Source of the DNA: Owenia fusiformis | Taxonomy: Eukaryota > Annelida > Polychaeta > Sabellida > Oweniidae | Assembly (NCBI GenBank): GCA_903813345.2 | Contig: CAIIXF020000008.1 | Coordinates: 26,272,822-26,336,821, forward strand | DNA length: 64,000 nucleotides | Reading direction: 5' to 3' | Shown: piece after piece, positions 1 to 46,599 of the stretch | How the letters are laid out: the number at the start of each line of letters is the position of its first letter | How positions within the stretch are numbered: position 1 is the stretch's first letter | Notes under the pieces: model-generated | Told to the model about the DNA's origin: nothing | Seen by the model: the letters and a program-made list of their open reading frames with translations, nothing else | Database searches by the model: none | Translations under genes and position numbers: made by a program

Positions 1-3000
1 TCTTACAGAGCAATTCCTAGAAACTCAAGTGAGTCAACGATTGTTTACTTATTTTCTAATTATTATGTCTTCCAGAAGTGTTTTGTAAAATATTATAACA
101 ACCATTGACATACTTCAGTTTCCGTTTCTGTTTCGTTTTCAATCTAAAGAATCCTTCCATAATGTCTGTCTGACAAAACCTATGTAATAATCAATTGAAA
201 TCTAGAATCAGCATTGGAGATAAATCTAATGCTTAATCTAAAGTGAAAATCTATATTAGGTATAAATATGATATACACTTTGAAAGATAGATTAGTAGAT
301 GAAAATAAATCAAAAAAGAAAACCATCACAAATCTTGATACATTAATCGGACATAGTGATTGAAACAGAAAGGCAAAAAATTAGATGTATGTTTTGCCAT
401 GAGGTGTAAATTGTAAATTTCATGAAAAGCTCTGAACATTGTGCTGTATTGATAGAATTCAAGCCACAAACAAAGATATTTATAAGGATCTCAAATTCCT
501 GTAAATTAAGTCATTTTGACAGATAAATACCACACCATTCAATTAGTTCCTAGAAAATGCTCCTTATTTTTTATGTCATATGAACTTATTGAACAACCTG
601 ATATATCGCTTGAAAATGTGTAATCTTATTTGCAGAATGTGACAAAAGGTGCTAGACACAAAATTGTACTAAGTATTGCCAAACTGAGAGAAAGACCAGG
701 GTTGCTCAAACAATTGGAAAAGGTAAGGGCAACTTGTTACTCAATCCAAACACAAAATATGGGTTTTACCACCTGATTAGGATTTATAAAAAAACACCAT
801 AATCTAATTTTGGGAAATGATATAATATCATTTCAGCTGAACTCATGTTCCTGTAACTTTGTCAACTTGAACTTTAGGAAAACATACTGCGTATCTGGCA
901 TATGTTATTTAGTGAATGAATAGAAACAGTTTTAAGAACTCAATGAGAAAACATGAATTCAAGAATATTTATGGGATTCTTTTACCACCATTGAATGGAA
1001 AGTAGAACATATTTTCTCTTATAAGACAAGGAGTGAATGCAAAGTACGGGAATTAATCGGGAAATTAATTTTCCACAGCGTTCAAAAGTAAGAAGACAAA
1101 TTGCCTGTAAGGATTTATGCTGATTTTTCTTAATATTCAAATTCAATTCTCAATTTAGTTCAAAAATTCTTACAGTATAGTATAGATGTTGTATTTAAAA
1201 AACACATTTGTAATGAACCATGTTGCAGGAGGTTATAGAAGGAGGATCAATTAAATCAGCTTTGACTGAAATGCGGGGCATTCTTCAAACGCCAATTAAA
1301 CTATACAGACAGCCCTCCAATGAGACGAATGAATCAGCCGACTCTGCCCTCCCATCCCCAACAGGGACAGAGGGAGATGGTTCAACAATTCCTGAGTTAG
1401 ATCTTGCCAGCAGGTTCACCAGGGTCATGGGAAAAGGTCAGTTAGATTGAGAACTCAGAACAACCTCTAAAACTGCTCTGAAATTAATCCAATTTAACAG
1501 ATGATCAGTGAAAATGTCATCTCTAACGACATCAACATAAGGTATCAAATTAAATTTAACATTTTTTTAAATACTGTAGATTGGGTTAATTTGGTGCTAC
1601 TTAATTTGGCGATTTTGCCATTTTTGGCATATTGGCGGCTATTTAATTTGGCGGATATGAAAAAAAATGTTAATACAACGTTATACTTGCGCTATTAGCG
1701 AACTACCATGTAAATGGGCATGTTTGGCTATGTTCATTCTTTAAAAGTCCTCAAAAGTTGAGGACCACTGGCGATATTCACCATGTTTGTACATTTTTGT
1801 GAGATCATCCTTTACATTTTGCACCTCGATCGATGCTGCTACTATACCTCACCTTTTCCCTGAGTATTAATGAGTGACTGACCAGTTCTAAGCCAATTTA
1901 TGAGAGACATTTTTTCATATTTTTGTAAAAAATTTAACCGGAAGTGACCTAAATACACTGGACGAAATACCCTAGATAATTCCCGGGGATTCATTCTAAA
2001 TTTTGGCGAAGATTTATATTGGCGAATTTTTCAATTTCGCCAAATTCGCCAAATTAAAGCGGGCGCCAAATTAACCCAATCTACAGTATTATATATCGTA
2101 ATTTATTTAAGAAATGTATTATTTCCAGTTTGTACACAGCTGCTGGTGTCCAGTCACACTGATGATGAATGTTGTAACCTATACACACAGCTGATTGACA
2201 AGTGCATCAACCATGAGGTACATTCTTTATAAAAAGCCTGACTCTGGAGATCATTAAAATGGCAATATTGTAAATTACCACAATTTCAAAGTATATAAGT
2301 GCCACAAAATGATTACCAATAATGTTTGCATTTGATATAAGTTACAGTGACTTGCAAGTTGGATATTATCATGATTTAACAAATTGGGGTGATTTAGTGT
2401 CAAATACTGTTAATAGCTTCCAAAACAAATTATACATAAATTTGATCCTTTAGTTCCTCCCTGTCAAAAATCCAAAACCTCCAAAAGTCCAGTACATAGC
2501 CTTATAATGTCTTTACTCAGGTCTACGAAAGTGACATGACCTTTGCCAATCATATTATGAAAGTAAGATATGTTTGTAAAAGTACTTTTTTCCATTCCAG
2601 GCCTTCACCCAGAAACAAAAGAAGTTGTTGTTCTCTTGGAAACAGCAACTGCAGAAGATCTGGCAGCCACATCCTCAACGTTATGGAGCTGACAACAGGC
2701 CCAAACGCAAGTAAGTCATTAAGAACATTCACTCAATACTCACATTGCTCACCTTATATGTGATCCAACCAAAATACTGAGATGCAATCCCTGAATTCTA
2801 ACTGTCTGACTGGCTCCTAAAAACTGCCTGATCACTATCATTCAAAGCTGATTCTTCACTTAGGAAAACTCAGATTAGCAATTGAGTGATGAAACTTGAG
2901 AGTTAAAGACCTTATGCATTCCCTGCAATTCTCACTTAAATGCTCTTCCATGTGTATGCCAATTTCGCCAAAGCAATTTTATATACTAAAGGAATGTGTT

Positions 3001-4835
3001 TTATAGATTTGTATGGGTTGTTTGATTAAGAATATGTTTTTCATCGATATCTGGCCCAAGGACCATATAGGGAGTAATATGTGCCTGAAGGATTCATCTT
3101 TTGACAACTTTGAAAATTGATCTTCATTCCAGCTCATGGGGAACATTTCCAAGAGGGACGGGGAATGCTCCATTTGCGACAAACAACATCCAACGCAGAT
3201 TGAGTGCCCATGCTCAGCCAACTGGTCAAACGACATGGAGCTTTGGAAACTCCAAAAAACTGATTGGAAACAGTGGCACTGGGGGTCACACTGCACTTGC
3301 CAGGAATTCATCATTCAATCTAGCAGTGACGCGGCCAAGTTCTATTGATGTGAGTTAAAAACATAATCACATGTTGAGAATATTTCTTCTATTAAACTTC
3401 ATGTATTTATTTTACCATTGAAAAATTTCAAACAAAGCATCTGATCTACTCTGTCAAAAGTTCAAAATTTTGCTTTTCCTGTGATAAATCTTTTTATGAT
3501 TCCTTGAATAAGTGTTATTTATTGGTATTTCCCTCATAAACAATATTGTTTCTTTGAAAATAATGAACATTTAGGATGTTCATGTGACTTGTTCTAACTT
3601 AGATGGTCCAATGTCTGTTTTGTGTATTCTCTTTTCTCAACAAATTTGTCAACTTGTATATTTCAGGAAATGAAGAAACAAGTGACCCGTACACACTCAC
3701 TGCCTTCCAGGGCCAACCCGTCATCTACGTTCTACAGGCAACCCAGTAAGTAAAGTTAAAAAACACTCAAGGAAATTTTCTCTGGTTAATGATAACTAAT
3801 TTTGTATTTACTTCATTTGCTTCATTTCATGGCATCACAAATGTGTTGGATGTATTGGAAATACATTTTTTATTAAAACTTGAATCATTCTGAATTTTTG
3901 TTTGCTTATTTTGACCCATTAAATACTACTTTAACTATTTCCTTATAATACATTTTCAAATTTTCCAGCTGCCCCTGAAAATAGTGCCACGGAGCCAGAA
4001 ATTAATGCACGATTAGACTCACTGTGTTTGAGTATGACGGCTCATGCACTTGGTGGATTTGGTAAGCATTTCACAAAGAAATTATTATGACAAAAATGTT
4101 AACAGGTATCTTATATAAACTACCAGTTATGTTTTGGCTGTGTGAGCCAAATATAATATCCACAAGTTGATTAAAGGTGGAATAGCAGTAAATTGGGAAT
4201 AATTCCTAAGAAAAAAATCATTGGTACCTTAAACCTGTCCTGGAGATTGGCTATGACCCCAACTTACTTTTTTCAAAATACCAGAGTCTGAAAAAATCAT
4301 TCACCTCGATATTGATGAAAGAAGTTTCAGTATTGATCGACTGCTGAAAGGTTTTTGTTCAGTGTGATATTAACATGGTTTTCACTAATTTTGCACCCAA
4401 TAGAGGGCTTTTGACCTTTTTTTTATTACATCACGTGGTGACCGTCAATTTTCCCTTGAAAATGTCAAAAGGCAAAACTAAGTACAAGAAACATTGTCAC
4501 CTATTGTAAGTTGATCGAGTTAAATTGATATTTTTGAATGAAGGAAGAAAATTTGCATAAAAATCGTAAACTCCACTTGATGTGTTCTTCATCACTATAT
4601 CGTCATTTTCTTGATACATATTGGAACTTATGGTTCATATCCATTTAATATTATGAATATTCTTCCTTTAAGTAGATTCATTCTGCCCTTTGGCAAGTTG
4701 TAAAGCAAGCCCCCCCCAAAAGCTCATATTGACCCAACATCTTGTTTAATTACTAAACCTTATTGCCATCTATCCTTACAAAAAATGATTGAACTTCTAT
4801 TTCCAGATACAATGGACAAAACCTCTACATTTTAG
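1..4835 (+). CDS. SAMD4: Smaug / SAMD4 homologue, 3' portion (nine coding exons)
   Basis: Smaug proteins bind stem-loops in mRNAs through a SAM domain and repress translation or recruit CCR4-NOT deadenylase in the cytoplasm. Coding exons joined by frame and GT-AG sites are 1-28 (enters from outside the window), 636-722, 1229-1436, 2129-2217, 2601-2710, 3133-3349, 3667-3745, 3969-4061 and 4807-4835 (TAG). They give about 312 residues with consistent phases. Visible parts are the end of the SAM domain (LTEQFLETQ, then [18 protein letters not shown]), the EGGSIKSAL...TPIK linker, FTRVMGK leading into the PHAT domain ([39 protein letters not shown]), a low-complexity middle, and the conserved tail [16 protein letters not shown] ending DKTSTF. 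The match to vertebrate SAMD4A is from memory but runs the whole length, including the C-terminus. The N-terminal half lies upstream. Intron 3 carries a TIR element (1574-2086). Confidence 0.93.
1574..2086. mobile_element. TIR element (MITE) in SAMD4 intron 3
   Basis: The ends are inverted copies of CTGTAGATTGGGTTAATTTGG, and each is bordered by TA (1572-1573 and 2087-2088). TA duplication suggests a Tc1/mariner-type non-autonomous element. The inner part repeats TTGGCG/CGCCAA-rich sequence. No transposase is visible. It sits between the exons ending at 1436 and starting at 2129, in the intron that splits the linker from the PHAT domain. Confidence 0.75.
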
Positions 4836-5495
4836 CCAAAGCTCCTATTTGTGAGAGATATTTTCAATAAAATGAAGCATCATAAGACCCAGTGCTCAAA
4901 CTATTTCTCTACTGATTTTGTCACCATGGCAGCAATAGAGCTTGATGGATATATCTCATCTCTATGGAAACTGATGAAACTGAAGACTTGAGATGAATGA
5001 TGACCATTATAACATTGAACTACATTGTTATGTGAAATTGATGCAGATATGTCATTGAAGTTATATAGGACATTGCTACTTGTTTCAATCTAATCTGGAG
5101 TCAACCATAGAACTTTGTCACACCAGCATCTATCTGATTGTTTTAGTTGCCAGAGTAATATGGTTGACATAGAAACATGGTTGTCATGGATGTTATAGAA
5201 GTATTATTGCCTTACAAATATAGTTGCCATAGAAGCATGGTGACCAATGGAAGATGATGTTCACATTGAATATGATTATGTTAGAAAAATGGTGGCCATA
5301 AAGATATGGTAACCATGGTAAAAGGGTTGATATGGTTGTCATAATAGTATGGTTGCCATTCATGAAGAATTAACTGTTAAGGATGTGTATGTTGCTATGT
5401 AGCATATATATATTTGGTGGTTAGGGGTTTTCTAAGATGACAGATCATGCATTTAACAATGAAATGATGAACACATTTGCCAAGTAATTGTTAAG
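4836..5495 (+). other. Probable SAMD4 3' UTR with degenerate repeats
   Basis: Non-coding sequence follows the SAMD4 stop. An AATAAA lies at 4866-4871, only about 30 bases after the stop, and another at 5607-5612 inside an inverted-repeat element, so the true 3' end is not settled. From about 5155 to 5365 there are loose repeats of an ATGGTTGCCATAGAAGCATGG-like unit. No coding region is supported. Confidence 0.5.
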
Positions 5496-5649
5496 AAAGG
5501 ACCAGGTGTGGTATGGTAAATGTTTTTAGGCAGTCATAACTTAGACCATGACTATTCTGACCATAAATACAACATTTTTATTAAAATAAAATGTAGTAAT
5601 TGGGGCAATAAACGCATCAATCCATCTGCCATACCATACCTGATCCTTT
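5496..5649. mobile_element. Short inverted-repeat element
   Basis: AAAGGACCAGGTGTGGTATGG on the left is mirrored by CCATACCATACCTGATCCTTT on the right, enclosing about 110 bp. This is typical of a MITE or foldback element. No clear target-site duplication is visible. It may lie in the SAMD4 3' UTR and supplies an AATAAA at 5607-5612. Confidence 0.55.
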
Positions 5650-8243
5650 TTGTATTTTTGTGGAAAACTGGCAAATTAGCTTACAGTTGCACTTTATAAC
5701 ATGAAGTACAACTGTTAAATAAATGTACGGTTTATATATTTTTCATGACTTCATGCAAATTTTACTATTTCCATGAAAAACACATTTCATACTTTTTATT
5801 GAAAAATATCTGGAAATAGGAAAATTTGTTAGAAGAATAAGAATTCATGTAAAGGTGGGTTGACACTACTCATTTCACCATTTTGTAGGTTGAATAGTGA
5901 TCCTTTTCCGATCAGTGAGATGAAGTATTTATGACTACCCCAGATTTTGGTTTATGAATCCAACAGTAAGAATGTCATTTGTCCAACATAATTAGTTCAT
6001 CAACCAGTAAAGGGGGATTCTCAAATCTAGGCTTTTGTTATAGAATTCAATATTTTTTGTGTCTATTAAACAGGGAATACTGAATGTGAGGTTCATCATT
6101 GTAAAGAAGTTTTAAATGCTTTGTTAAGGTTCAAATGACAGTATTATCATACCTCTGACACTCTGTGCAATTTTATTTTGTTTAAAGGGCATGCACATAC
6201 AAAAAATGCCATGGTTATCAATTACCTTAACAGTGAACACCTATTACTTTGTAAAATGTTCAGTCAAACGAATTAAACTATAAGCTCATTTCTGTATGTT
6301 TTGATATACATGTAAGCTGTATCGAAATTACATCTGGAAATTGACCCTCTGGCATTACGCATGTACATCAATGTGGTTTATACTTCTTGTTATAATTCAC
6401 AGAATGCTGAGCTGGGTTCTTCCTTTACAGCCAGTAAATTAACTCTATTGACATAATTTTATCCCTAAAATCTGAGAATAAAGGAGTCATACTTATGTCA
6501 TGTCTTATCTTTAACAAGTTATGAAACAAACTTGAGCAGATGTGAGGGAAATTCCAGCAGAATGTATTGTTTAGAAAAAGATAATAATTTTCCTATTGAA
6601 AATGGTTCCTCAGAATCTACCAGCTGAAGAGAATTAATACAATGTACATGAAAATAGAATGCCAATGAAAATAGGATGCCAATGAAAATAGTTAATGTCC
6701 TGTCTCGGTAGTGCTTGAACTTCATTCAAAGCAATACTGTGAAATTATTTGTATGTGCATCCTTATGTAGTGGATTGAATCCACATGGAATCCAACGTTG
6801 ACGTGGATACCTTGTAATTGGCGGAATCTAAGATTGGGTGCCTTTGCCTCAAATTATTCCTATATAATGCCATATAAAATATGAAAAGTTTATAAAAATG
6901 CAGCGTATAATCATATGTGCACTGCTTTGTGAAGTCTGCTTTCTTTATGTCATCCAATTGAAAAAATAAAAAAGTCATCCTATTAAAGCTCAGTTAACAT
7001 CTGCTGAATGCACAGTTTACCGTTTATAGATCAGCGACATTTCTTTCAATAATATTCGACAATAGATAATAGAATTATCGAAGATTTCAAATTGGTTCTA
7101 GTCAAAATCCATGACAGAAATGTAGCTGAAATGATGTCTCTGATATACAAACTTATGAACTTGCATTAAAGTGTGTGCAATAGCAAACCGATTGTGAATC
7201 TCGTTTAATATTGTTTAATACTAGCTATAGACGATACATTATAAAATAGTTATTTTGCAAAACAGTGCCTTTTAAGTGTTTAGTTAAGGTTTGACATCTT
7301 CACTACAAGTTAGTAATAGTAATAATAATATATACAATGTATTATTTTAAGTATAAAATGTAACCGAAGCTTTAAAACATATCCAAAATTAACCAATGCT
7401 AGGTCCACCTAGTGTGGCATTTTCTACAGAATAACTGAAAGCTGGACTTTGTAATGAGTTTATAACTTTGTAAATAGGTTTGCTAGATGAACACTATGGA
7501 TTTATAATGGATGAGGAGTGACCATTCATTGAAGATAATTAATGTGAAATTCCCCTGGGTGAGGTGTCACAGTGGTAGGGGTTACAGTGGTAGGGGTTAC
7601 ATTGGTAGGGGTTTGTGATCGGTGTCTGTAACAAATGACAGGTGGTGACATTTTGCATGTTATTGCCTTTTTTCCTTCAAAGTTCATACTTAAATGGTAC
7701 CTGTTACATGTCTTTTGATAACTTGAACTTGAAAAAGTAATGGTCAGATTTTTGGCGAGAATTACTGATGTACCAAATTATAGTTTCAACAGGTCCTGTG
7801 TTCAACCATTTAACCAGCTAGCGACATCTTATTATTTCAGAATATCCTTGCAATTACCTACTTGGTCATTGCTGGATATTTCTTTAACTTTGTGAAACAG
7901 GTTGGGTACTTGTTAGGGGGTGGGCACTGAATTTGGCGGTTACGCTGTATGTACCATGTATATTATTACCACTGTGACGTTACATTCAAGGCATTCTTGT
8001 TCATTGTGTAGATTGTAGTGTCTAGATTTTGATGTCATCTATGTTAATAAGATGTCATCTATTACAAGTTTATATGTTATTTGTTCTATCTGATGTCATG
8101 CATGTGTATTTTGATGTCTTATATATACATAAGACAAATATATTTGAATGTAGTGTATGTTTCAAAACTCCTACCCTGTACTGTAAATCTGCTTATTTTT
8201 GCAAAAATCTTCACTTGCTGACTTCAATATGTCATAAGAAAGA
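5650..8243. other. AT-rich non-coding stretch
   Basis: No gene is supported. Short open frames here are AT-rich chance frames. A small tandem repeat of an 18-bp unit (about GAAAATAGGATGCCAAT) lies at about 6648-6695, and three copies of AGTGGTAGGGGTTAC lie at 7571-7613. It may include the distal SAMD4 3' UTR. Confidence 0.5.
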
Positions 8244-8374
8244 GACCTTTCCAATAAACCCTGCCACCTATTGTTACATCAAATAGCTGATATATTAACT
8301 AGATTCATGAATACAGCCACTAAATGAATGTTTCTTCGATGTACCAAAAGGGGGCAGGGTTTATTGGAAAGGTC
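8244..8374. repeat. Inverted repeat with 22-bp perfect arms
   Basis: GACCTTTCCAATAAACCCTG and two further bases at 8244-8265 are exactly mirrored at 8353-8374. The arms flank 87 bp of AT-rich sequence. It is probably a small MITE, but no target duplication is evident. Confidence 0.65.
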
Positions 8375-9133
8375 TATTACTACATAGAATATTACGATTG
8401 CAATCAACATGTAAATCAGTTTTAGTAAACATTTTACAGTAGTATTGTATAGCCATGAGAGTCGATTAAATAGAAAAACAATGAGCGCCTTCAGGATTGA
8501 ACTATAGGACATGTTGTATATTTAGGCGAATTGTTGTACATTACAACTCTACAGTCAAATGTTAATGATAAGTCACTGCAGGCTTACCAAAAGCAGCCCC
8601 AGGTCTTTTGAAAGTACAGTAGATCATGTAATGTATTGTTTTCTCAATTGCTTGCTTTTTCCACCAACTTTGCATACTTACCTAAGGTTAACACTCAACA
8701 TGTATATGTACATGTAAACATATACAGTACATCTACATGTATTATTTAAGCCTGAAGTTGTGAATGAGGATTCAGTACATGACTACAGTACATGGAGTAC
8801 ATATATATGTAAGACGCAAGCTCTTTGTATTGTGGCTGTAATATAGTAGCTAGAATGATATAATTGTAGAAGGTTAAATATTTATTGAAGATGAAAAGTG
8901 AAAAGCATATTATTAAGTATTAGTCAGGAGGAGAATACATACATTGAAAGTAATATAGTTCGTAAACTGTTTATTATGAAGTCGCTAAGCTAAAATTGTA
9001 CACTGAAAATAATTCCATCCTCAATGTCAAGTTTTCTGATTTCAAACACCTTGTACCACTTGTACTTTGATTATGAGGTTAAATTTAAAACACTAGATAG
9101 ATTTGAGATCAGTGCAGAGTGTTGTCTTATATA
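8375..9133. other. AT-rich spacer, nothing recognised
   Basis: No long open frame, RNA gene or clear repeat structure is seen. The stretch at 8690-8810 is rich in TACATGTA-type dyads. Confidence 0.5.
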
Positions 9134-9375
9134 AGGGGGGGGAGAAACCCCAGGATTCAAAGATGACATACGCTTATAATGTAAATCTGTTTTGAGATGA
9201 CATCGTCGCTGATTGGTTTAGCGAGTCGATCGTTGATTGGTTTAAAAATAGGTCAATTTGAAAACTTTGAAAACCAAGATGGAGGGTAAACAAATATACG
9301 TACTTCCGGGAAAGGAGGTGCGCGAAGGAGGAAATCGTATGTCATCAATTGAATCATGGGGTTTTCCCTCCTCTT
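9134..9375. mobile_element. TIR element with 10-bp target duplication
   Basis: The left end (AGGGGGGGGAGAAACCCCAG, then GATTC and GATGACATACG) is an imperfect inverted copy of the right end (CGTATGTCATC...GGGGTTTTCCCTCCTCTT). GTCTTATATA occurs directly outside both ends (9124-9133 and 9376-9385). A 9-10 bp duplication fits Mutator-like elements; if only eight bases count, hAT is possible. The 242-bp body has no coding capacity. Confidence 0.75.
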
Positions 9376-9385
9376 GTCTTATATA

Positions 9386-10134
9386 TTACTAGAACTATAT
9401 GGTTATTCAGTAATGCAAAGTGAATAAGAAGGTAACATTGTATCTAGTCTACACATTCTACTGAGACAAACTGTATCAGCAGGAAATGCTCGAGAACTTA
9501 AAAACATTTGCTCATAGATAAATAGAAACATAGTATGATTCTAAACTAGTATCAGTTTGTATGATTTTGCAGAAAAGTAGATTTTCACAAAAAGGATATT
9601 TCTTCAGTAGAATGTGTCTCTAGTTTGCTTCTGATATTTCTCTTTCTATATCCTCTTGAGCATGTGGCACTATGTCCCTGGCCAGCATGTTGATTTGAAA
9701 AACTTAAAAGTTGAACTGATTGTCCTGTGATGACATAAAAGCATCATTTACTTTTGGGAATTAAATTTAGAAAATCTTTCTTATGTAACTTTTTTTTTTA
9801 ATTATGAAGAAATTGAAGCACATTTGGGTCAAGAGAATTACGTCATTGTAGAATAAAGCGACATAAATTAGGTGAAATGTGAGATCCAATTCAAAGGTTT
9901 TTTCAAAATTACTGTTTTCAAAAAGGAGTAAAATCTCATTTTCTGTCATTTTGACATGGAAGGATAAGGTTGAAACATAAGCTGTACTGTATTGAAGAAT
10001 TTGAAATGCATTAACAAATAACATTTTAGCATGTATTCTAGGATTAATGGGATTTTTTTTGTTGTAAAACAGGGAGGATATTTAAAATACCTCGATCACC
10101 CTGTTAAAATATTTGGAAAGATAGGCTACATGCA
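9386..10134. other. AT-rich spacer, nothing recognised
   Basis: No supported gene. Only short AT-rich open frames are present. Confidence 0.5.
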
Positions 10135-10496
10135 TTCTTATTATCCCAACGAACAAAGTTCGGTAGGGATTTAGTGAAGTCTTCCTAGTTCCAACCTTAT
10201 TTAAGTTGTCTGTCTGTCCATCCATCGGTCTGTCCATCCATCTACCTGTCTGTCTATCCATCCATTTGTCTGTCTGTCCATCCATCTGTCTGTCCATCCA
10301 TCCATCCATCCATCCATCTGTCAGTCCATCCATCTGTCTGTCTGTCTGTCCACCCATCCATCCATCCATCTGTCTTGTCTCCAACTGTCTTGTTTGTCTA
10401 TCCATGCGTTTGTCTCTCCAGGTAGTTCCTTAAACATAATAACGCATTTTTTTTGTTCATTGGGATTCACTTCCCCACGGAGTTGCCATTTTTTGA
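10135..10496 (-). repeat. Dispersed repeat family A, near-complete copy with internal microsatellite
   Basis: Read on the minus strand, it starts with AATGGCAACTCCGTGG, passes a long tetranucleotide array (TCCA/TGTC units, 10206-10390 on the plus strand) and ends with AATCCCTACCGAAC and GTTCGTTGGGATAA. Related copies or pieces lie at 11862-12090, 13791-14350, 21750-22090, 25820-25870 and 30019-30255. The array is open in several frames on both strands only because of its composition. This is a non-autonomous element with a satellite core; I cannot name the family. Confidence 0.65.
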
Positions 10497-11861
10497 CTTC
10501 TTATAACATTGTGTTCAAGTTGTGACCTATACTGTACTTGTAGGTCTATAGAGGACATTTGTAGTTAGTATATGCTTGTACTGTGCTTAGTAATTAGATG
10601 TAATTTGGACATTACTGGATAATATTTAGCCATTTAGACCTGGAGATTTTCATTGATGGAAAATCATAGTAAATAATGTTCGGGGAATCTTTATTTTTCA
10701 AATGTAGCATATTAAAAGATTCTTGTCTGATTTTCCAAGCAAGGGGACATTACAAAAATTGCTTAAATGAGTTTTCACCTTGCCCTTAACAGAGTGTTTG
10801 GGACTTGATGTAATATTAGGCAAACATAAAGGATATATTCTAAAATATATATATTGGCAGACATTTTCATTCAATAATAATGTCATTCACTTTCACTGCG
10901 CATCCTAATGATAACAAAAAACACAAGTGCCATCTCTTATCAACACTGCTTGCATTGAAAAATCCGTTTTTATGCTACAATTTGTAAAAATTAGAAATCC
11001 CAAATATTACCAGGTTTAAATAAGATACAGAGGTTTCATTTTTGAAACCTGATTGATGTATTTTGGCAATGTTGTTGTTAAGCTACTAGGTGTAGTTAAA
11101 TGTATTCCAGAATTTTGTATGCCTTAATGATATGATGGATGACATAGTCTGAGACTGTGCATTCTTTAGTATGTTCTACAGCAAGCCTGTATGTAGTTAC
11201 CTAAGGGATTTGGAAATAAATTGTATTCAGTATTAAATGTTTTGTTCAGAATGTTGGGTTGATCAGAAAAATGAATTAACATCCCTAAAATAAGTAATAT
11301 TATTATTATCTCCCTGTCAAGTTTCTCATTCTTTGATTGGGATGCTTATTGTTATTGGTTAAGTGGCCCTTGTTTTGAAAAGCAAATATTCCCTAGACTC
11401 CATTTTTATCCCTCTTTTTTCAAAGTGCTATATTGTCATCATTTTGTGGTGATGAGTGTGTGCGCATCTGACAGTCTGTCTATCTCAGCGAGCCCCACAT
11501 TAAATCAAACACCGAACACATTGAGAGGAAATTGGACATTGAAGCATTAAGATAAGAAAACAATTTAAACAAAATGATGATAGGTGTTCATTTAGTGACC
11601 AAGAATGAATTGCTACTGACAAGAAATCGAAGTTTTGAAGTTAAATTCATGGAAAATATCTTGTACCCTGTATCCAAATTGAAATTTTGATATGTCCCAT
11701 GTTTGACCCACATGTCTCTGATAAACATGTAAAATCTATGCATTTCCTTGAATAAGATCTGTAATTAAGAACATTTTTAAGATATTAGCTCAAATTATTC
11801 TGAAATTGAGTCAATTTTGAAAGATTTTGATCGCAATCTATGCTTTTACTTTAATATATTA
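10497..11861. other. Spacer, nothing recognised
   Basis: AT-rich sequence without a supported coding region, RNA or repeat array. Confidence 0.5.
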
Positions 11862-12103
11862 ACTAGAAAAACAGCAACTCCATGGAGTAGGAAATCGCTC
11901 CGAACAAAACATATTTTGATAATAAGTGGCCATCTTGAAAATTTCTTCTTGAACAGAGCATATCAAGAATATAAAATTTGAACCAAATCCATTCTCTGGT
12001 ATTTGAGTTATCAAAGATTACGTGGCCATTTTGAAATTCAGCTACCATCTTGAAAATCTCTTCTTGAAGAGAGCTATTGTGTCCTTAGGCATCAGCATAC
12101 ATA
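11862..12103 (+). repeat. Dispersed repeat family A, partial copy
   Basis: It contains CAGCAACTCCATGGAGTAGG near 11873, then GAACCAAATCCATTCTCTGG and TTTGAGTTATCAAAGATTAC, the recurring phrases of family A. It runs directly into a 17-bp satellite. Confidence 0.6.
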
Positions 12104-12225
12104 TATATACTTGTATATCATATATACTTGTATATCATATATACTTGTATATCATATATACTTGTATATCATATATACTTGTATATCATATATACATATA
12201 TCATATACATATATATACTTGTATA
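12104..12225. repeat. 17-bp tandem repeat (about seven copies)
   Basis: The unit is ATATACTTGTATATCAT, with the last copies degraded to TA-rich sequence. It makes a chance open frame. Confidence 0.85.
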
Positions 12226-13790
12226 TCACATCATAATTAATTCACTTGAGACCTCGGTAAAAAGTGCAATGTAAAGCTTTAAGTATGATAAATATGACAT
12301 GTTTCTTTAAAAAAACAGAATATGAATATGTTTTATATACATATCTTTTATATACACATTTTCACATAAGAAGACTTCAAATGTGACACCATTAATAAAT
12401 GAATCAAGAATTGATGCACATATAAATTGTGCATACTTCCATTCATCTACAATTTATACTTATCACGCAAAGCAACTATTGAATATTTTAGTTTTTAAAA
12501 CCATATATGTAGTTCCACACAAGTCATGAAATAAATGTTATATTCTATAAGGATTTTTGTATGGGGACAGCACCTTACTGGCTTTGGGTGGGCCCAGAAA
12601 AAAATTTTGAGCCAAAGAAGGGGGCCTTTTTGGTAATTATTTTTTAATTTCAGGCCAAATTGGGCCCAGAAAATGGGCCTCAAAATTTGGGGGGCCCAAA
12701 ATTTTTTTCCACGCAAGCGCGAAAGTTTTTTTCTCTGACCTGAAATTTGGGACCCCCCCTTGTTGGTTCCCAGATCTGCCCCTGTTCACTCTGAATAATT
12801 TGGGTAGGTATGTGCAATTTTGCCATAAACCATGGAAACTTGCCAATCTGAGAGGAAAAACATAGAAATATTATTGAAGAAGGTAACTTTTTGGGTCAAA
12901 ATTCATTTTTCTGCAAAAAATGGTATTAAATTGGTTAAAATCAGTTGCCGGGGCTTTGAACAAATCAATGGAGAACTGGATTTTCTAGTCAATTTTAATG
13001 CTATTTTGAATAATTTAGTCCCTGCAAACTCAGGGAATTAAACATGGAAACCTTCAATCTTGAGAGGAAATTAACAAGGAAAAATGCTCAAGAAGGAGGT
13101 CTTTGGCATGGCACATAGGTATTAAGAAGTATGTATATTGGAGTGAAACCCCCGATGGACAGTAGTTGTCAAAAGATGCCAATATCAAAATTTTAAAGCT
13201 CACTTCAGTTTAATTGAAAGGTGTGCAAGTGTGTAGGTTTTACATCCACCATTATATCTACTATCTTGAATAAACATTATTCTTTTGCTTGTAGCAAACA
13301 AAATTGCCAACTTTCTTCTTACAAACTTCTTTACTTGTGGCTTATAATGCAGTTCTACAAAGCCGCAGACATGTGCTTGTTATATGTTAGTTATATATGG
13401 AAATAAATCATTAATAAAAAAAATTCTATTAGTTTTACAATGAGAAATTCGATCAGTTATGATTTTATGTTTTGCAACCTTTTGAAAAACTGATCTCTAA
13501 ATTATAATGTATGGGAATTACATGTCTTAAAATCTATAGAAAATGGTGGGAGGGATTTAAAAGTTTAACAAACGCCTATAATACAGTTCTTTCAATTACG
13601 TATACTTTGCATAGCATGAGAAGACTTTATTTTTTATAAGGTTTCTAATAATTTTGATAGATGCCCACACCCCATTTCAAAAATGTTAGGATGGGGTAGG
13701 ATGTTTTGACAATTAGTTTGGTATGACATGTGTGACTCGTAACATTCGTGCATAAACTAAACTAGCTTCTTTCACTTTCCAGGAACTTTT
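12226..13790. other. Spacer with old repeat fragments
   Basis: From 12570 to 12780 there is a GGGCCC/AAATTT-rich segment in the style of the hAT-like element at 47412-49023. From about 12830 to 13110 two loosely similar segments share ATGGAAAC...GAGAGGAAA...AAGAAGG. No gene is supported. Confidence 0.45.
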
Positions 13791-14354
13791 CATGTTTCGA
13801 ATTCAAATAATAAATGACACATAAAAATTTACCAATACAGCCATTTTTCTTATTCCGGAGCCAGGGGGTTTGAAATTTGAACCAAATCCGTTCACTGGTA
13901 TTTGAGTTATCAAAGATTACTTTTTTATGAAAAATAGTGACCATTGAAATTGAAAATCTCTTCTTGAACAGAGCCACTATATCCTTAGGCACCAGCATAT
14001 ACAATTTTAACCAAATCCATACATTGGTATTTGAGTAACCAAAAATTACTTTTCAGTGGCTATCTTAAAAATCACTTCATGAGCAGACCTCCTTGGTCCC
14101 TAGGCATCAGCATAAAAGATTTGAATCAAATCTGTCAACTAGTATTTGAGTTATCAAAGATTAATATTTTTATCAAAAAATGATGGCTTTTTTTAATTGA
14201 GTAGCCATATTCAAAATTCCTTCTCAAGCAGAGGTTCTATATATAATTCTGATATTCGAGTTACCGCTAGGAAACACAAATGGACGAATGAAAGGACGGA
14301 CGGATGGACAGCTTCTTTATATCCCTCTCAATCTTCGTACGGTAGCATAATAAA
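13791..14354 (+). repeat. Dispersed repeat family A, copy with several internal units
   Basis: Three to four copies of a roughly 120-bp unit are seen (GAACCAAATCCGTTCACTGG, TTTGAGTTATCAAAGATTAC, then a CTTCTTGAACAGAGC-like phrase). They end in a GGACGGACGG microsatellite and TATATCCCTCTCAATCTTCG. The downstream LINE begins immediately after, so the LINE probably inserted at the 3' edge of this copy. Confidence 0.6.
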
Positions 14355-14371
14355 ACAGATTTTTGTCCAAA

Positions 14372-15505
14372 ATGTTCAAGTCTACTATATTGGATCTTGA
14401 AAACAGGCTTAAAATATCTGATAAGCAACGCCTGGATGAGATCAAGATTACAAATGCAACCAGTGTGATGAAAGTACAGGATCTGGAGAAAGAAATACTG
14501 AACTATGAAAATAAATTGTCAATTCTAACTAAGGAACTACATGGATCAAAGACAGACAATGAGACCCTATATCGTAAAGTGAATTCTCTGCTGAAGCAAG
14601 TAGAAAGTGAAACAATTAGTTGCAGTGCCCCTCAGAGCATCATTAACCATAATAAAGACCAACATCGCAGCCCTAGACCTCATTCATCTACTGAGTCTAC
14701 ATCAGCAAACTCATCCTTGAACCGCACCAGTCCTAAAAATACTCATTTGCCTAAACCGAACCGAGCGACTCCTACTAAAGTGAACCGCACCAGTCCCAGA
14801 AACACATATCCAGATGAGCAGAATCGAGTCCCTCCTACTAAACCTAGCCCTGGTCAGTTTACACGTACAAGCAACATACTAACAGAGGCCCCTCCAATCC
14901 CCTCAGTACAAATAATGTATGACAGTAATGGAAAGAAGCTAACTGAATCAATGAAGCGGAAATCTCCCCAGAACATATCTGTTACTGGCTCAATCTACAG
15001 CGGTTGTACAATAGATTTTGCGACAAAGAGTATGCAACAAGGAGACCTTAAGCAGTCAACAGATTTCAAGTTTCTCGGATTTGGCACAAACAATGTCAAA
15101 ACAGATGACCCACAAGACATGGTCTATGAACTAAAAAATCTGTTACTGACAGCTAGCAATAAGCATCCACAAACTAAACTTATCCTATGTGGAATACATC
15201 ATCGTGGTGATAGTGACAACCCTAAAATAGTAGCAGAATGGAATACCAAGATAGACTATGTTAACAAGGAAATGCGTTCCTTTTGTACAAGAAAAGGACA
15301 TGGGTTTGTGGACATCAATGCAGTAAATAATTCTACTGTTGACAATCCCTGTATGAGAGTCCTTTTTAACGACAGACTCCACTTCAACCCTACTGGCCGT
15401 AGCCGACTTGTAGATGCTATGCTCTCCATCATGAATGGAAAACGTCCCACAACATATGCACAGGCTGTAAACCCTACCAAAACCTGGCACAGTGCCAAGT
15501 TTTAA
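14372..15505 (+). CDS. LINE ORF1: coiled coil plus SGNH-like esterase domain
   Basis: Starting at ATG 14372 this gives about 377 residues. The first 80 or so are charged and heptad-like (LDLENRLKISDKQRLDE, VQDLEKEILNYENKLSIL), a likely coiled coil for multimerisation. A Ser/Pro/Asn-rich linker follows, with an internal repeat (NRTSPKNTHLPKPNR / NRTSPRNTYPDEQNR). The C-terminal half resembles the SGNH hydrolase fold carried by CR1-type ORF1 proteins: GFGTNNV for the Asn block, LILCGIHHRG, and DRLHFNPTGRSRL for the catalytic Asp-x-x-His block. The Ser block near VTGSIYSGC is unclear. The role is RNA binding and assembly of the retrotransposition particle. ORF1 ends inside the open ORF2 frame. 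Confidence 0.8.
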   Translation: MFKSTILDLENRLKISDKQRLDEIKITNATSVMKVQDLEKEILNYENKLSILTKELHGSKTDNETLYRKVNSLLKQVESETISCSAPQSIINHNKDQHRSPRPHSSTESTSANSSLNRTSPKNTHLPKPNRATPTKVNRTSPRNTYPDEQNRVPPTKPSPGQFTRTSNILTEAPPIPSVQIMYDSNGKKLTESMKRKSPQNISVTGSIYSGCTIDFATKSMQQGDLKQSTDFKFLGFGTNNVKTDDPQDMVYELKNLLLTASNKHPQTKLILCGIHHRGDSDNPKIVAEWNTKIDYVNKEMRSFCTRKGHGFVDINAVNNSTVDNPCMRVLFNDRLHFNPTGRSRLVDAMLSIMNGKRPTTYAQAVNPTKTWHSAKF

Positions 15506-15762
15506 ATACTGAGTGTGATGTACATTTACTTGCTGACAGTCTACCACTTAATAGTGCAATTAGTACTTTTGACAGTTCAAAAGATGTATATAAGGTTAAT
15601 GACAATTCAAAAGATGTATATAATGTAAATATTGATACTAACTTAAATACTTTAAAAACACAAGGTAATCTTGCAATACATGATATATCTGGGACACAGG
15701 CTACTTCGTCAAATGGAAAAGGTAGTGTTTATAATGAGAATATTCAATCTTCAAATGAACAT

Positions 15763-18700
15763 GTGTCAATTTTACTTTGGAACATAAATAAGATTTCTGA
15801 TAAACTACATGATGGTGAAGATATCCAAAAATGGTTCAATAATTTTCAAATTATATTATTGTGTGAGACATGGTTATCACCAGAATCTGAAATTGCATTC
15901 GAAAACTACACTTGCTATAATCTAGCCAGAAACCCCAAAAATGTACTAAAGGGGCACTACTCTGGAGGGCTGGCTGTGCTAATAAGTGATGTTTATGGTA
16001 AAAATGGTATTGAAATTCTATCACAATCACATGACTTTTTTGTATGGATAAAATTCAATTCCAATCATTTCAATATTACAGAAGATTTATATTTATGCTT
16101 TGTTTATTTACCATTTAAAGGTTCTTCTTATGAATTTGTAACTGGATGTAGTAATATTGACATATTAGAAAAATCTTTAGCTTATTATCAAACATTAGGA
16201 AGAACTATAATATGTGGAGACATGAATGCTAGAACTGCTCAGTTGTCTGATTCTAACATTAATATACCTGGCAATAATGGTGATATTCCCATACTGCTAG
16301 ATGACACTTTATATAATTTGCAAGATGTAAATGAGGTTTTAGTTAGCAATCGCATTTCTATGGATAAAAATGTAAAGGCAGTCTCTCAAACTCATGGCAG
16401 AGAATTTTTATCACTATGCAAAACTGCTAATATGAAAATACTTAATGGTCGTCTTTATCAGGACAAAAATTTAGGGAAATTCACATGTTATCGTAATGTT
16501 ACCCATAAATCTAATACAGACCTAAACTTAGGAAAATCAGTTATTGATTATGTTGCAGCTCAATCAAACATTATTCCCTTATTTTCTGATTTTAAAGTGC
16601 ATGATAGACGTGTTGAATCTGACCACGCACCATTGCATTTTTCTCTATCATTAAAAAGGGATATTGAAAATCAAAGTAAATCATCAAACATTCAATCAGA
16701 ACCCCTGAACATTAAAACATATAAATCATACAAATGGGATCATAAGAAGAAAAATGAATTTAAACAAAAATTAACTGATAATACTAGCATTGATCTCTTA
16801 ACATCTTTTTACACTGAACTTGGATGTAATGATACTGGATCTGATGAACTTGTAAATAAGCTCCTTAACGTAATTCATTATGCATCTAATAACACATTTC
16901 AATTTAAACAATTAAAAACTAAGAAAATGCACACCTTTCCCATCAATTCATGGTTCAATGATGAGTGTAAGTCCTTAAAGAAACAAGTACATGAGGCAAT
17001 AAAACACAAATTTAGTGATGATCTTATAAATAGTTTAACCAAACAATATAATCAAACTAAACAACGAGAAAAGAGAAAGTTTAAAGCAGGAATGCTTAAT
17101 AGTTTAATTCAGAATAAAAGCAAATACTCTACAGATTTCTGGAAACTGATAAACGCAATGCCAGGAAATAAAATTAAACAGATGCCAGTTCCACCTAAAG
17201 ATTTATTCAACTTTTTTAAAAGTCTATCTAAACCCCCAAATATAGAATATTTTGATGACAATGCACTCAAGGAAATGAATCAGTATGTTATGAATTATCA
17301 AGTTTGCCCTGAAGATAAAAATTTACAACTTTGCCATGATACTGTCAACATAAAAATTACTCAAGCCGAAGTCCAGCGTGCTTTGAAAAGAGTGAATACA
17401 AACAAATCAGCTGGTATTGATGGTATTCCATCTAATATTATTAAAAATTGTAAATCTCTCATTTCTGATTTTACATCACTATTTAATGCTATTTTTGAAA
17501 AAGGAGAATATCCAAGTGACTGGAGCATTGGTATGCTCAGTGCACTTTATAAACAAGGCAGCCGTTTTCAAGCTGATAATTATCGAGGCATTAATGTACT
17601 GGCCTGTATAGGAAATTTATTTGACTCAGTTATACAAAATCGTCTTGTCTTTAATGCTGAAGTGCAAAATTCGCCAGACCCACTTCAGGGTGCTTATAAA
17701 GAAAATAGGCGTACAACTGATAATATTTTTATTTTGCAAACACTAATTAACAAATTCAAGCAGCATAAGAAACCATTGTATACATGTATGATTGACTTTA
17801 GGAAGGCGTTTGATTACATAGATCGCTCGGTACTGTTATATAAACTATGTAAATCTGGAATTCATCCACAGACTAAAATGTACAAGATTATAGAGAGCAT
17901 GTACTCTAAATCTAAGTCATGTCTCAAGTTAGAAAATGGAGTCACGGAAACTTTTGACACTGAAATAGGAGTTTTACAAGGAAGTGTTTTAAGTACATTT
18001 TTATTCAATCATTTCATAGATGACTTAAATGAAATATTACCACCCAGATATGGTGTTACTTTGAATGATGCCAATTTTAATCATCTACTATGGGCAGATG
18101 ATCTTGTACTTGTTTCAGAATCACACAATGGACTTCAGTTGTTATTAGATTCACTTTTTGCTTTCTGTAAAATTAATAGACTTATAGTCAACACCCTTAA
18201 GACAAAGGTCCTGATTTTTAACTCTAAATATTCAGATCCTTTCACTTTTAATAATCAAGAAATTGAACGTGTAAATAAATATAAATATCTCGGTGTTATT
18301 CTTACTGATAGCAATAAATTTGATATTAACACTGCTTATCTTAAAGAACAATCACGAAAGGCAATATTCAAAATCAAACAACAGTATAAGAAATTCAATG
18401 ATGTACCACCCGATGTTGCTCTTCACCTTTTTGATTCATTAGTCAGTCCAATACTTTGTTATGGGTGTGAGATTTGGTATGATAAGAAACAGATGAAATC
18501 TATTGAAACATTGCATTTGTCCTTTTTAAAATCTATTCTAGGAGTCAAAACTCAAACAGCTAATCCTGCAGTATATGGTGACCTCGGTAGATTTCCTTTA
18601 TCTATCAAAATTGAATTATCTTTGATAAAATACTGGTTAAGACTTATAAAACTACCAGAAACTAATATTTTAAATCAAGCTTATTTATATTGTCAAGAAA

Positions 18701-19275
18701 TACATGAATTAGGGTTTAAATCATGGTCTGGAAAAGTTTATGATATTCTTCACAAATGTGAACTAACAGAGTATTGGGATGACCAAAGTCAAAATACAGA
18801 CAACTTAGTAAACTTGGTTGACAAGAAACTAAAGAATGCATTTATAAATAATTGGAGAAATGATATTTTACAATATCCTATATTAAGAACATATAAGCTA
18901 TTTAAGAAAGATTTTGAATTAGAACCATATTTAAAACTAGATAATAAAAAATATAGATTAGCAATAGGTAGATTTAGGTTAAGTTCACATCAGCTAAAAA
19001 TAGAATCTGGAAGACACATAAAACCCAAACCTAAACCAGTTAATGAAAGGTTGTGTAATATATGTAAATGTGTGGAGGATGAATTTCATTTTATCATAAA
19101 TTGTACAAAGCATTCTCAACACAGGCAAATATTTTTCAGTAAAATTTCTGAAATATTACCAACATTTGACTTGAATAGTAACGATATATTTATAAATATA
19201 ATTTCTAATGATAATATCATCTTCCAACGACATCTTGGTAAATTTATATACCATTCATTTAACAATTTAGAGTAA
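15763..19275 (+). CDS. LINE ORF2: APE endonuclease, reverse transcriptase, CCHC
   Basis: About 1170 residues. The apurinic endonuclease part spans roughly residues 1-300: LLWNINK, CETWL with the catalytic Glu, GDMNAR and SDHAPLHF. The reverse transcriptase follows: NTNKSAGIDGIPSNIIKN, QGAYKENRRTTDNI, CMIDFRKAFDYI for motif A, LQGSVLSTFLFN, and LLWADDLVLVS with the catalytic Asp pair. A zinc knuckle C-x2-C-x7-H-x4-C (CNICKCVEDEFHFIINC) lies near residue 1100. The frame is open from about 15403, overlapping ORF1, yet has no ATG before the GDMNAR motif; 15763 is a GTG. Translation would need a non-AUG start, frameshifting from ORF1, or reinitiation. The linker carries a 30-bp tandem duplication (15571-15630). 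Confidence 0.88.
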   Translation: MSILLWNINKISDKLHDGEDIQKWFNNFQIILLCETWLSPESEIAFENYTCYNLARNPKNVLKGHYSGGLAVLISDVYGKNGIEILSQSHDFFVWIKFNSNHFNITEDLYLCFVYLPFKGSSYEFVTGCSNIDILEKSLAYYQTLGRTIICGDMNARTAQLSDSNINIPGNNGDIPILLDDTLYNLQDVNEVLVSNRISMDKNVKAVSQTHGREFLSLCKTANMKILNGRLYQDKNLGKFTCYRNVTHKSNTDLNLGKSVIDYVAAQSNIIPLFSDFKVHDRRVESDHAPLHFSLSLKRDIENQSKSSNIQSEPLNIKTYKSYKWDHKKKNEFKQKLTDNTSIDLLTSFYTELGCNDTGSDELVNKLLNVIHYASNNTFQFKQLKTKKMHTFPINSWFNDECKSLKKQVHEAIKHKFSDDLINSLTKQYNQTKQREKRKFKAGMLNSLIQNKSKYSTDFWKLINAMPGNKIKQMPVPPKDLFNFFKSLSKPPNIEYFDDNALKEMNQYVMNYQVCPEDKNLQLCHDTVNIKITQAEVQRALKRVNTNKSAGIDGIPSNIIKNCKSLISDFTSLFNAIFEKGEYPSDWSIGMLSALYKQGSRFQADNYRGINVLACIGNLFDSVIQNRLVFNAEVQNSPDPLQGAYKENRRTTDNIFILQTLINKFKQHKKPLYTCMIDFRKAFDYIDRSVLLYKLCKSGIHPQTKMYKIIESMYSKSKSCLKLENGVTETFDTEIGVLQGSVLSTFLFNHFIDDLNEILPPRYGVTLNDANFNHLLWADDLVLVSESHNGLQLLLDSLFAFCKINRLIVNTLKTKVLIFNSKYSDPFTFNNQEIERVNKYKYLGVILTDSNKFDINTAYLKEQSRKAIFKIKQQYKKFNDVPPDVALHLFDSLVSPILCYGCEIWYDKKQMKSIETLHLSFLKSILGVKTQTANPAVYGDLGRFPLSIKIELSLIKYWLRLIKLPETNILNQAYLYCQEIHELGFKSWSGKVYDILHKCELTEYWDDQSQNTDNLVNLVDKKLKNAFINNWRNDILQYPILRTYKLFKKDFELEPYLKLDNKKYRLAIGRFRLSSHQLKIESGRHIKPKPKPVNERLCNICKCVEDEFHFIINCTKHSQHRQIFFSKISEILPTFDLNSNDIFINIISNDNIIFQRHLGKFIYHSFNNLE

Positions 19276-19485
19276 TCAGCAAAATTTGTGCATCACACTT
19301 TAAAATATTTTGCCTTTCTTGTATGCTTTCTGTAAATATATCAAATCATGTATATTTTTTATAAAGATGTAGTTTTAGTAAGTAGTTTAGTAGTAGATAG
19401 TAGTTTTAGTGAGTAGTTTATGACTAATGTAATCATGTTATGATACAATATGTCAATAAAAGTTATATAATTCATATATTGCAAT

Positions 19486-19737
19486 ATGTATTGATTCGGT
19501 GCAAATAGGAGTATAATCTTATTTTTTAAACATGTTGAACTGTCTGCTCTCTAACACGCTATAAATAACATACAGCATCTAATGATAAAAATAAACACTA
19601 GAATTAATTTACAATTTTATTTAACATATGTATTTTCGCATAACTGCAAATAGTACAATTTTAGAATTACATTTAGTTTTTGATTATATGTCTATTCAAT
19701 CATGTTTAAATTTTCTGACATGCAATTGACTATTGTC
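19486..19737. other. AT-rich spacer after the LINE
   Basis: No gene is seen. The exact LINE 3' end and its target duplication could not be placed. Confidence 0.4.
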
Positions 19738-20190
19738 TACCCTTTGCATTCGTTTGACTTCACTTCTTAAAAGAGAGCTTCGTCTTTAGTTTAACTAGAC
19801 TCTGCACGCAGGGTAACTATTGTCACTGTATCATTCAAGGAGAAATGGCTCCCAGGGTTCCAAATCAATATTTTTTAATCTCCAGCAATTTTCAGTGTAG
19901 ATTTCTACGGAAAAGTTTGCACAAATTAACTCCAAGGAGAATGGCAGATATTTTAGGGACCTTGACCTTGATTGATGAGAACAATGGTGTTATTTTCTGA
20001 CATGATAACTGACTATGAATACATAATCAGTGTTCCAAAAAATTTGAACTAATATCCTGATCTCTACTTGTGTGTTTTGAAATTCTTTGTTGGGAAATAA
20101 GAGATTTAAATTCTGAAGGGAAAAATGGTGGATGTCTGATTTTGAATTTTGTAATCATGACGTGACTCCATTTTTGGCAGAATACTGAGT
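19738..20190 (+). repeat. Dispersed repeat family B
   Basis: It begins TACCCTTTGCATTCG and reaches CTCTGCACGCAGGGTAA at about 19816. It continues with sequence alignable by eye to 49340-49990 (AACTAATA...CTGATC...TGTGTGTTTT, then AAAAATGG.GGA). Its 80-90 bp head recurs at 58353-58443, 58968-59057 (inverted) and 60084-60167 (inverted). Confidence 0.65.
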
Positions 20191-20711
20191 TGGAACCCTT
20201 GGAACCAATCCTTGGTTACCATCAATGAAGCAGAAGGGAAGTATGTTTACCTTTAACAAACAGTATACACTATTTTTTCATTTGTCAAGAATGCAAGAAT
20301 GCCATTTAGAAAATTCCCAGAAACCTTACTTGGATAGTTTTGATTATACATGTACATTTGAAATCCTGAGAAAATACACTTTTAATTACTACTATTTGTA
20401 TTTTTACCCCTCAATGTTTGTGCATTTAATAAAAGTAAATATAGAAACAGAAAAATGCAGCTTAATAATAAGAATTTAAGCAAATGTATTGCAAATGCAT
20501 ATTAAATTGTATCTGTATTTCTTGAAACATAATAAACTGCTCATTTTCTCCTAAGTATCCAATAGGCCTGTAAGGGCTTACAATACATGCCCATAAACAG
20601 GTATTTGACACAACCAAATGTATGTTGGATAACAATACAATTTCTCACACATCTCCAAGACAATAGAGTAAGTATGGCATTATATGAAAATTTGACTCCC
20701 ATATACATGTG
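20191..20711. other. AT-rich spacer, nothing recognised
   Basis: No supported gene; a short AT-rich open frame at 20225-20479 has no family features. Confidence 0.45.
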
Positions 20712-20718
20712 CATTGTG

Positions 20719-20820
20719 TTAGCCTTGCCAAAGTCGGTATTTTTACTTATCTGATCTTTGATTATTACTTAATTAATTGATAATAAAATCAAAAAAAGAC
20801 ACCGACTTGGGCAAGGCTAA
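20719..20820. mobile_element. 102-bp micro-MITE with 7-bp target duplication
   Basis: TTAGCCTTGCCAAAGTCGGT on the left is mirrored by ACCGACTTGGGCAAGGCTAA on the right, with one mismatch. CATTGTG flanks both sides (20712-20718 and 20821-20827). The centre is AT-rich. The crisp ends and duplication suggest a recent insertion; the superfamily is not assigned. Confidence 0.85.
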
Positions 20821-20827
20821 CATTGTG

Positions 20828-21749: not shown

Positions 21750-22090
21750 AAGTAGAGATCATATGCAATAAAATTTGGACTAAATCCAGTAACCGGTATT
21801 TAAGTTGTCAAGAAAAAAAAAATTTAAGTTGACAAAAGTTATGTTCTGTTCATGAAACATGGTGGCCATTTTTAATTTAGCAGCCATCTTGAAAATTCCT
21901 CCTTAAACAGAGTTCTATGCCCATAAAGCATTGGCGCATGATATCCTGATCAAATCTGACAACTGATATTTGATATTTTCTACAAATATATGGCAGCAGC
22001 TTTGAAGTGAATAGCAATATTGTAAATTCTACGACTTGAGAAGAGGTCCTCTTCCCATTGCTTTACAAAGCCTTTGTGAAAAATGATAAG
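21750..22090 (+). repeat. Dispersed repeat family A, degenerate copy
   Basis: It shows TTTGGACTAAATCCAGTAAC, GGTATTTAAGTTGTCAAG, GCAGCCATCTTGAAAATTCC and a CTTAAACAGAG-like phrase, matching the internal units of family A at 13791-14350. Confidence 0.5.
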
Positions 22091-22420: not shown

Positions 22421-22536
22421 TATCTTTGAAATACTTCATAAGCATTGTACTTCTATATCATATCTTTAAAATACTTCATAAGCATAGTACTTCTATATCA
22501 TATCTCTAACATACTTCATAAGCATAGTACTTCTAT
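22421..22536. repeat. Tandem repeat, about 45 bp x 3
   Basis: Three copies of a unit containing ATACTTCATAAGCATAGTAC followed by TTCTATATCATATCT. Confidence 0.8.

Positions 22537-23807: not shown

Positions 23808-46599
<22,792 letters not shown>

Follow-up and report, generated by a model that had tools for sequence, protein, structure and literature searches.

Gene pairs conserved since ancient times form a recognised class: unrelated genes are reportedly kept adjacent across distant animal phyla, as Irimia et al. are said to have described in Genome Res in 2012. The pair considered here, the Smaug gene SAMD4 and GCH1, resembles those ancient metazoan microsyntenic pairs in that the adjoining genes are unrelated, and it may already have been catalogued. 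In the openly licensed PMC literature, no paper presenting SAMD4-GCH1 as conserved beyond vertebrates was recognised among the matches listed, which does not prove the pair unpublished, and a Fugu synteny paper contains nothing on GCH.

Two better-defined kinds of gene neighbourhood differ from this locus in their architecture. The BLCA blocks of Robert et al. (2022; PMC8851819) consist of at least three genes within five intervening ones, whereas the unit shared with human here comprises two, and most lophotrochozoan blocks of that kind are gene-dense (PMC8851819), in contrast to the 19-kb spacer that lies between SAMD4 and GCH1. Bidirectional-promoter pairs, for their part, stand head to head over a short shared promoter, whereas SAMD4 and GCH1 point tail to tail and are 18,972 nt apart.

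A further counterpart is found in vertebrates. At human 14q22.2, we take SAMD4A (plus strand) to adjoin GCH1 (minus strand) directly and tail to tail, across a gap that we take to be smaller than 0.8 Mb. A published account gives the distance as ~0.8 Mb (PMC2903595), and a 1.04-Mb deletion, chr14:54,863,694-55,907,289, covers both genes (PMC6110470); this interval (chr14:54.86-55.91) fits both ~0.8 Mb and a smaller gap. The genes of the deletion, listed alphabetically with their order not given, include CDKN3, CNIH1, GMFB, CGRRF1, SAMD4A, GCH1, WDHD1, SOCS4, ATG14 and others (PMC6110470), and for a marker at 14:55.24 Mb an association table gives, in this order, SAMD4A, GCH1 and WDHD1 (PMC4673997). 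What this human region (SAMD4A-GCH1-WDHD1; PMC6110470, PMC4673997) has in common with the present locus is SAMD4 together with GCH1, and what human 19q13.2, with PAK4, NCCRP1, SYCN, IL28B, IL28A, IL29, LRFN1, GMFG, SAMD4B and PAF1 (PMC4243240), has in common with it is a group II PAK near SAMD4. In teleosts, synteny links socs4a to GCH and WDHD1, and the genes syntenic with socs4b are SAMD4A (in pufferfish) and PAF1 (PMC3296744).

The SAMD4 and GCH1 genes and their spacer

The window, that is, the whole stretch of 64,000 nucleotides that was analysed, is C8:26272822-26336821, read on the plus strand of a contig of 39,264,044 bases (C8) in an assembly of 498 Mb and 525 contigs. SAMD4 lies on the plus strand and begins outside the window, exon 1 being at C8:~26,250,440, some 22 kb upstream; the exon boundaries within the window were read by eye. 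The 3' end of the SAM-domain exon occupies 1..28, and the 29 residues that complete the SAM domain occupy 636..722. These are followed by exons at 1229..1436, at 2129..2217, at 2601..2710 (where an ORF in another frame was scanned without a Pfam match), at 3133..3349 (whose ORF likewise had no Pfam match), at 3667..3745 and at 3969..4061, the last of which encodes 23 residues that in our judgement resemble the C-terminus of human SAMD4A. The last coding exon, 4807..4835, reads DTMDKTSTF and closes with a TAG stop at 4833-4835, also read by eye. Against PDB, the SAM domain matched Smaug (1oxj, E 3.4e-19) above Vts1 (1.3e-5), and a long exon of the gene matched "Protein Smaug homolog 1" (8oik, 102.9 bits, E 2.2e-28) and "Protein Smaug" (8oij, 54.5 bits), which we take to be the human and the fly protein, respectively. 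A second SAMD4 copy was not found, the one exon used as a query matching itself alone.

GCH1 runs on the minus strand from 46599 to 23808 in six exons with AG/GT at their internal junctions: the coding part of exon 1 at 46203..46599 (Pfam GTP_cyclohydroI 2.2e-7; PDB GCH1 1.4e-11), exon 2 at 32992..33101, exon 3 at 32551..32606, exon 4 at 30607..30638, exon 5 at 24634..24718, and exon 6 at 23808..23937, which ends in a TAG at 23810-23808. The joined protein of 269 aa matched the PDB entries for GCH1, namely 1is7 (E 3.1e-96, residues 78-267), presumably the rat enzyme, and 1fb1 (1e-95). A GCH1 search of the genome returned three exon matches, all within this locus, and no second copy. The orthology of SAMD4 and GCH1 is argued from sequence matches and single-copy searches.

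SAMD4 and GCH1 stand tail to tail, and the stop-to-stop spacer of 18,972 nt (4836..23807) holds a LINE and tandem arrays, without a recognisable host gene. Its ORFs of at least 80 aa number 20, of which 12 were scanned against Pfam and the remaining 8 fall within tandem repeats or partly coincide with the LINE; two of the 12 are the ORFs of the LINE itself, and the other ten had no Pfam match at E <= 0.1. Rfam, run over the window, gave no family at the gathering score. The two genes are directly adjacent with no recognised host gene between them, although short or unrecognisable ones are possible. The LINE, ~5 kb long and on the plus strand (14354..19275), has a first ORF with a GDSL-esterase domain (Lipase_GDSL_2, 4.3e-9) and a second with an endonuclease (Exo_endo_phos, 6.8e-5, below the curated cut-off) and a reverse transcriptase (RVT_1, 1.2e-24), and we take it to be CR1/L2-like. 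At least 7.9% of the spacer is repeated elsewhere in the 264 kb compared, a share that is a lower bound because the comparison covered those 264 kb of the genome alone.

A non-LTR retrotransposon also sits in intron 4 of GCH1, antisense to the gene (26486..29852, plus strand; RVT_1 6e-18; zf-RVT 2.9e-4, below the curated cut-off). Its long reverse transcriptase ORF has a C-terminal stretch, RPDIVLW...IELTVPWEE, that looks to us like a restriction-like endonuclease.

A preliminary description of this DNA had named the two genes, placed them tail to tail with no gene between them and called the spacer repeat-loaded. The names agree with the PDB matches (1oxj and 8oik; 1is7) and the spliced multi-exon structures, the order with a six-exon minus-strand GCH1 beyond the SAMD4 stop and with ten spacer ORFs lacking a Pfam match, and the repeat load with the LINE and the arrays. 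It had also set the pair at positions 1-46599; the Smaug gene is indeed there, but base 1 of the window is not its start, since SAMD4 begins before the window.

Flanking genes and the group II PAK

The flanks were read for 100 kb on each side by a codon-usage scan, which can miss genes, and by Pfam and PDB searches. The resulting order is a group II PAK (minus), an IYD-like gene (minus), SAMD4 (plus), GCH1 (minus), two sulfotransferases (minus), a Gag-like ORF and POP7/Rpp20 (plus; E 4.1e-19), the Gag-like ORF between the sulfotransferases and POP7 being recognised by eye only. The gene before SAMD4 matched Pfam Nitroreductase with one exon (5e-5), and we take it to be IYD-like. Before SAMD4 there is an IYD-like gene here, as against what we take to be CGRRF1/GMF in human, and after GCH1 there are sulfotransferase genes, as against WDHD1 in human. 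The identified flanking genes are absent from the published gene list of the 14q22.2 deletion (PMC6110470). The two sulfotransferase copies, each apparently of a single exon (53066-54628 and 56781-58089, minus strand; Sulfotransfer_2), are ~95.5% identical over 1.5 kb, and the second is split across two frames near its 3' end; they are a young duplicate, one copy of which is broken or misassembled.

The group II PAK (C8:26204693-26211773, minus strand) is one gene, the IYD-like one, away from SAMD4. Its CRIB exon scored 71 bits against PAK4 versus 51 against PAK-alpha, and its kinase exon 78 against PAK5 and 70 against PAK4 versus 46 against PAK1. We know of no single human locus at which a group II PAK, SAMD4 and GCH1 occur together, and the relative strands of PAK and SAMD4 seem to differ between this locus and human PAK4-SAMD4B as we take the latter to be oriented. 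The likeness was noticed after the fact, about four identified neighbours having been set against about 25 genes that surround SAMD4A/B and GCH1 in human, and by a rough estimate one such match would arise by chance about once in ten such comparisons. The PAK was therefore rejected as proof of a three-gene block and is kept as a hint only. Group II PAK, IYD-like gene, SAMD4 and GCH1 are together here, whereas human PAK4 is near SAMD4B but GCH1 near SAMD4A (PMC4243240, PMC6110470), and this hints weakly at an ancestral PAK-SAMD4-GCH1 neighbourhood that was split over two paralogous vertebrate regions.

Common descent or coincidence

The evolutionary span of the comparison depends on the host, for which we turned to the Hox genes. 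A homeodomain query containing the KLTGP motif gave 26 matches at E <= 1e-10, 11 of them on one strand of contig C1 at 17.97-18.47 Mb; eleven homeodomain loci in 0.5 Mb look like a Hox cluster. This stretch (C1:17970454-18468341) has Lox5-, Lox4-, Lox2- and Antp-like members, and the starts of the pair at its low-coordinate end are 351 bases apart. Two of the loci continue past the homeodomain as KLKKEKQQIKDLNE and KEKKENQAIKEINE, which we take to be of the Lox4 and the Lox2 type, respectively. Another, at C1:18257146, reads KWKKDNNIEKLTGP and has KLTGP at homeodomain positions 64-68, a motif that is the signature of Lox5 (PMC5431905). A Lox5-type Hox gene with KLTGP assigns the host to the lophotrochozoans or their close relatives, and the comparison with human therefore spans the protostome-deuterostome split.

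Linkage on the larger scale was followed through six further families of human 14q22.2 (CNIH, CDKN3, WDHD1, SOCS4/5, ATG14 and GMF), three of which could be identified. All three (CNIH1, CDKN3 and WDHD1) are on C8, a contig that makes up 7.9% of the assembly, and all are megabases away, spread across 29.7 Mb, so that only SAMD4 and GCH1 are adjacent. CDKN3 is at C8:19.69 Mb, ~6.6 Mb from the pair, and WDHD1 at C8:36.83-36.85 Mb, ~10.5 Mb from it. Both CNIH genes are on C8, and the one at 7.19 Mb is presumably CNIH1-like and the other CNIH4-like, as judged against the human sequences. Two extra families, picked in part from the 19q13.2 lists, lie there too: Pellino at C8:1.69 Mb, whose human relative PELI2 we place near 14q22.3, and PAF1 at C8:20.26 Mb, the human PAF1 being at 19q13.2. 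C8 is not a general magnet for matches, since Cofilin_ADF matches fall on C3, C5, C8 and C12 and homeobox matches on C1, C2, C5 and C10.

The remaining three families were not identified. GMF was not identified among the 7 Cofilin_ADF matches genome-wide and may exceed the reach of the search; two of these matches, which lie at C8:3.31 Mb, ~22.9 Mb from the pair, were considered and rejected because their motifs look cofilin-like. SOCS4/5 and ATG14 had no match at threshold in the assembly, and as PF12610 matched no control either, the corresponding absence is uninformative. At C8:36.805-36.852 Mb, a CNIH gene on the minus strand lies ~26 kb from the first WDHD1 match, on the plus strand, and the 10 kb of intervening sequence that were read contain a LINE. 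This arrangement was rejected as a second surviving piece of 14q22 on account of the CNIH4-like sequence, as judged against the human ones, and dropped as block evidence because the CNIH1-like gene lies elsewhere, at 7.19 Mb.

How often such closeness would arise was estimated by placing both genes at random on C8, with gene density assumed to be uniform. Midpoints as close as the 43,976 bases observed were found in 0.22% of trials, or in 0.056% if the tail-to-tail arrangement is also required (division by 4). With five such genes, at least one of their 10 pairs was equally close in 2.2% of trials, so that the look-elsewhere effect is real. Given the same contig, the adjacency of SAMD4 and GCH1 is rarer than chance. 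Genome-wide figures cut both ways: 256 new blocks were counted at the bilaterian ancestor as against 45, 48 and 56 in shuffled genomes, but vertebrates lost 84% of the bilaterian-ancestor blocks, and the 70 that the vertebrate ancestor inherited are fewer than the 110, 120 and 124 that shuffling gave (PMC8851819). A match in human therefore says less about descent than the 256 blocks alone would imply, and our confidence in common descent was lowered slightly on that account.

Taken together, the shared linkage and the low odds under chance favour descent of the adjacency from the bilaterian ancestor, a reading of the sequence comparison to which we assign a probability of about 0.78. SAMD4 and GCH1 are orthologues of human SAMD4A/B and GCH1, and on this reading their tail-to-tail arrangement would have come down from the protostome-deuterostome ancestor; the ancestral chromosome would survive as C8, together with the other identified 14q22.2 genes, and later rearrangement within it would have scattered the neighbours by megabases and left the SAMD4-GCH1 link unbroken. 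Alternatively, the two genes could have been on the same ancestral chromosome and have become neighbours independently here and in vertebrates. Sharing a contig with the other identified 14q22.2 genes does raise the odds of an accidental adjacency, to ~0.2%, the pair was picked after the fact, and few ancestral blocks were kept by vertebrates (PMC8851819). The matching tail-to-tail orientation, as we take it to be on the human side, lowers these odds to ~0.06%, and we regard independent convergence as unlikely. It is scarcely conceivable that the likeness to 14q22 is empty because the gene names are wrong or because paralogues or retrocopies were compared: both genes are multi-exon with AG/GT splice sites, their PDB matches are strong and second copies were not found.

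The comparison on which common descent is argued involves two lineages, the human one being represented by published gene lists and by its presumed orientation and adjacency. Of the wider proposals in the preliminary description, the lophotrochozoan host, put forward there as a condition, is supported by the Lox5 motif KLTGP at homeodomain positions 64-68. The resemblance to human 14q22 stands for co-location, which published sources give (PMC6110470, PMC4673997), while the human orientation and immediate adjacency are presumed. Its two-gene block kept since the bilaterian ancestor is favoured by the C8 linkage and the odds of 0.22% and 0.056%, for the two lineages compared. The shared regulatory DNA that it placed in the spacer or the GCH1 introns is a possibility taken up below.

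Persistence of the pair

If the adjacency is ancestral, it may have lasted passively, in that no breakpoint in the ~19-kb spacer, which tolerated a LINE of ~5 kb, happened to be fixed. Alternatively, selection may have held the pair together, with enhancers of one gene located in the introns of the other or in the spacer, as a regulatory block or a shared chromatin domain, so that breaks would be harmful. TNF-alpha rapidly induces both SAMD4A and GCH1 in human endothelial cells, where 3C also shows a contact between the two (PMC2903595), and both this co-induction and this contact speak for selection, as does the fact that the pair stayed adjacent while CNIH1, CDKN3 and WDHD1 dispersed over 29.7 Mb of C8. 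However, SAMD4A also contacted SLC6A5 and PTRF, which are on other chromosomes (PMC2903595), so that its contacts are not specific to its neighbour; large transposons were accepted both in the spacer and in a GCH1 intron; and chance survival is compatible with a single link persisting out of the few that were tested. We consider selection possible, at less than even odds, and passive survival slightly more likely, because lophotrochozoans, taken as a clade, have kept 93% of the blocks that were new at the bilaterian ancestor (PMC8851819), because transposons occupy the spacer and the intron, and because genes that are tail to tail have no shared promoter.

Here we speculate further that SAMD4-GCH1 might form a minimal regulatory unit with an age of more than 500 million years and with an ancestral group II PAK on the SAMD4 side; vertebrate genome duplication would have split this trio between 14q22 (SAMD4A-GCH1) and 19q13.2 (PAK4 ... 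SAMD4B), while SAMD4 and GCH1 would still be prevented from separating by enhancers that they share in the spacer or introns. We hold this extended scenario to be improbable.

An ancestral adjacency would provide a clean test case, limited to two genes, for the question why some neighbours stay together for half a billion years, and in it the surviving link stands out against identified human neighbours scattered over C8. The regulatory DNA of GCH1, a gene linked to tetrahydrobiopterin and dopa-responsive dystonia, might then also lie inside or beside SAMD4A. Under mere inertia, SAMD4-GCH1 would be one more marker for the reconstruction of ancestral chromosomes.

Several smaller repeats were recorded within the locus. 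Intron 4 of GCH1 contains ~41 copies of a 19-base unit with the consensus TACATCCTAAACACACATC (24806-25581), and the stretch 24806-25704, which comprises the 19-base arrays and related repeats, has a GC skew of -0.35. Intron 1 of the same gene carries tandem arrays with periods of ~126-157 and 284 bases (42744-44320), which are adjoined by a 49-bp unit present in two exact copies. Finally, an 87-nt inverted repeat, with arms at 22671-22757 and 22896-22982 that are 84% complementary and 138 nt apart, sits in the spacer just downstream of the GCH1 stop.
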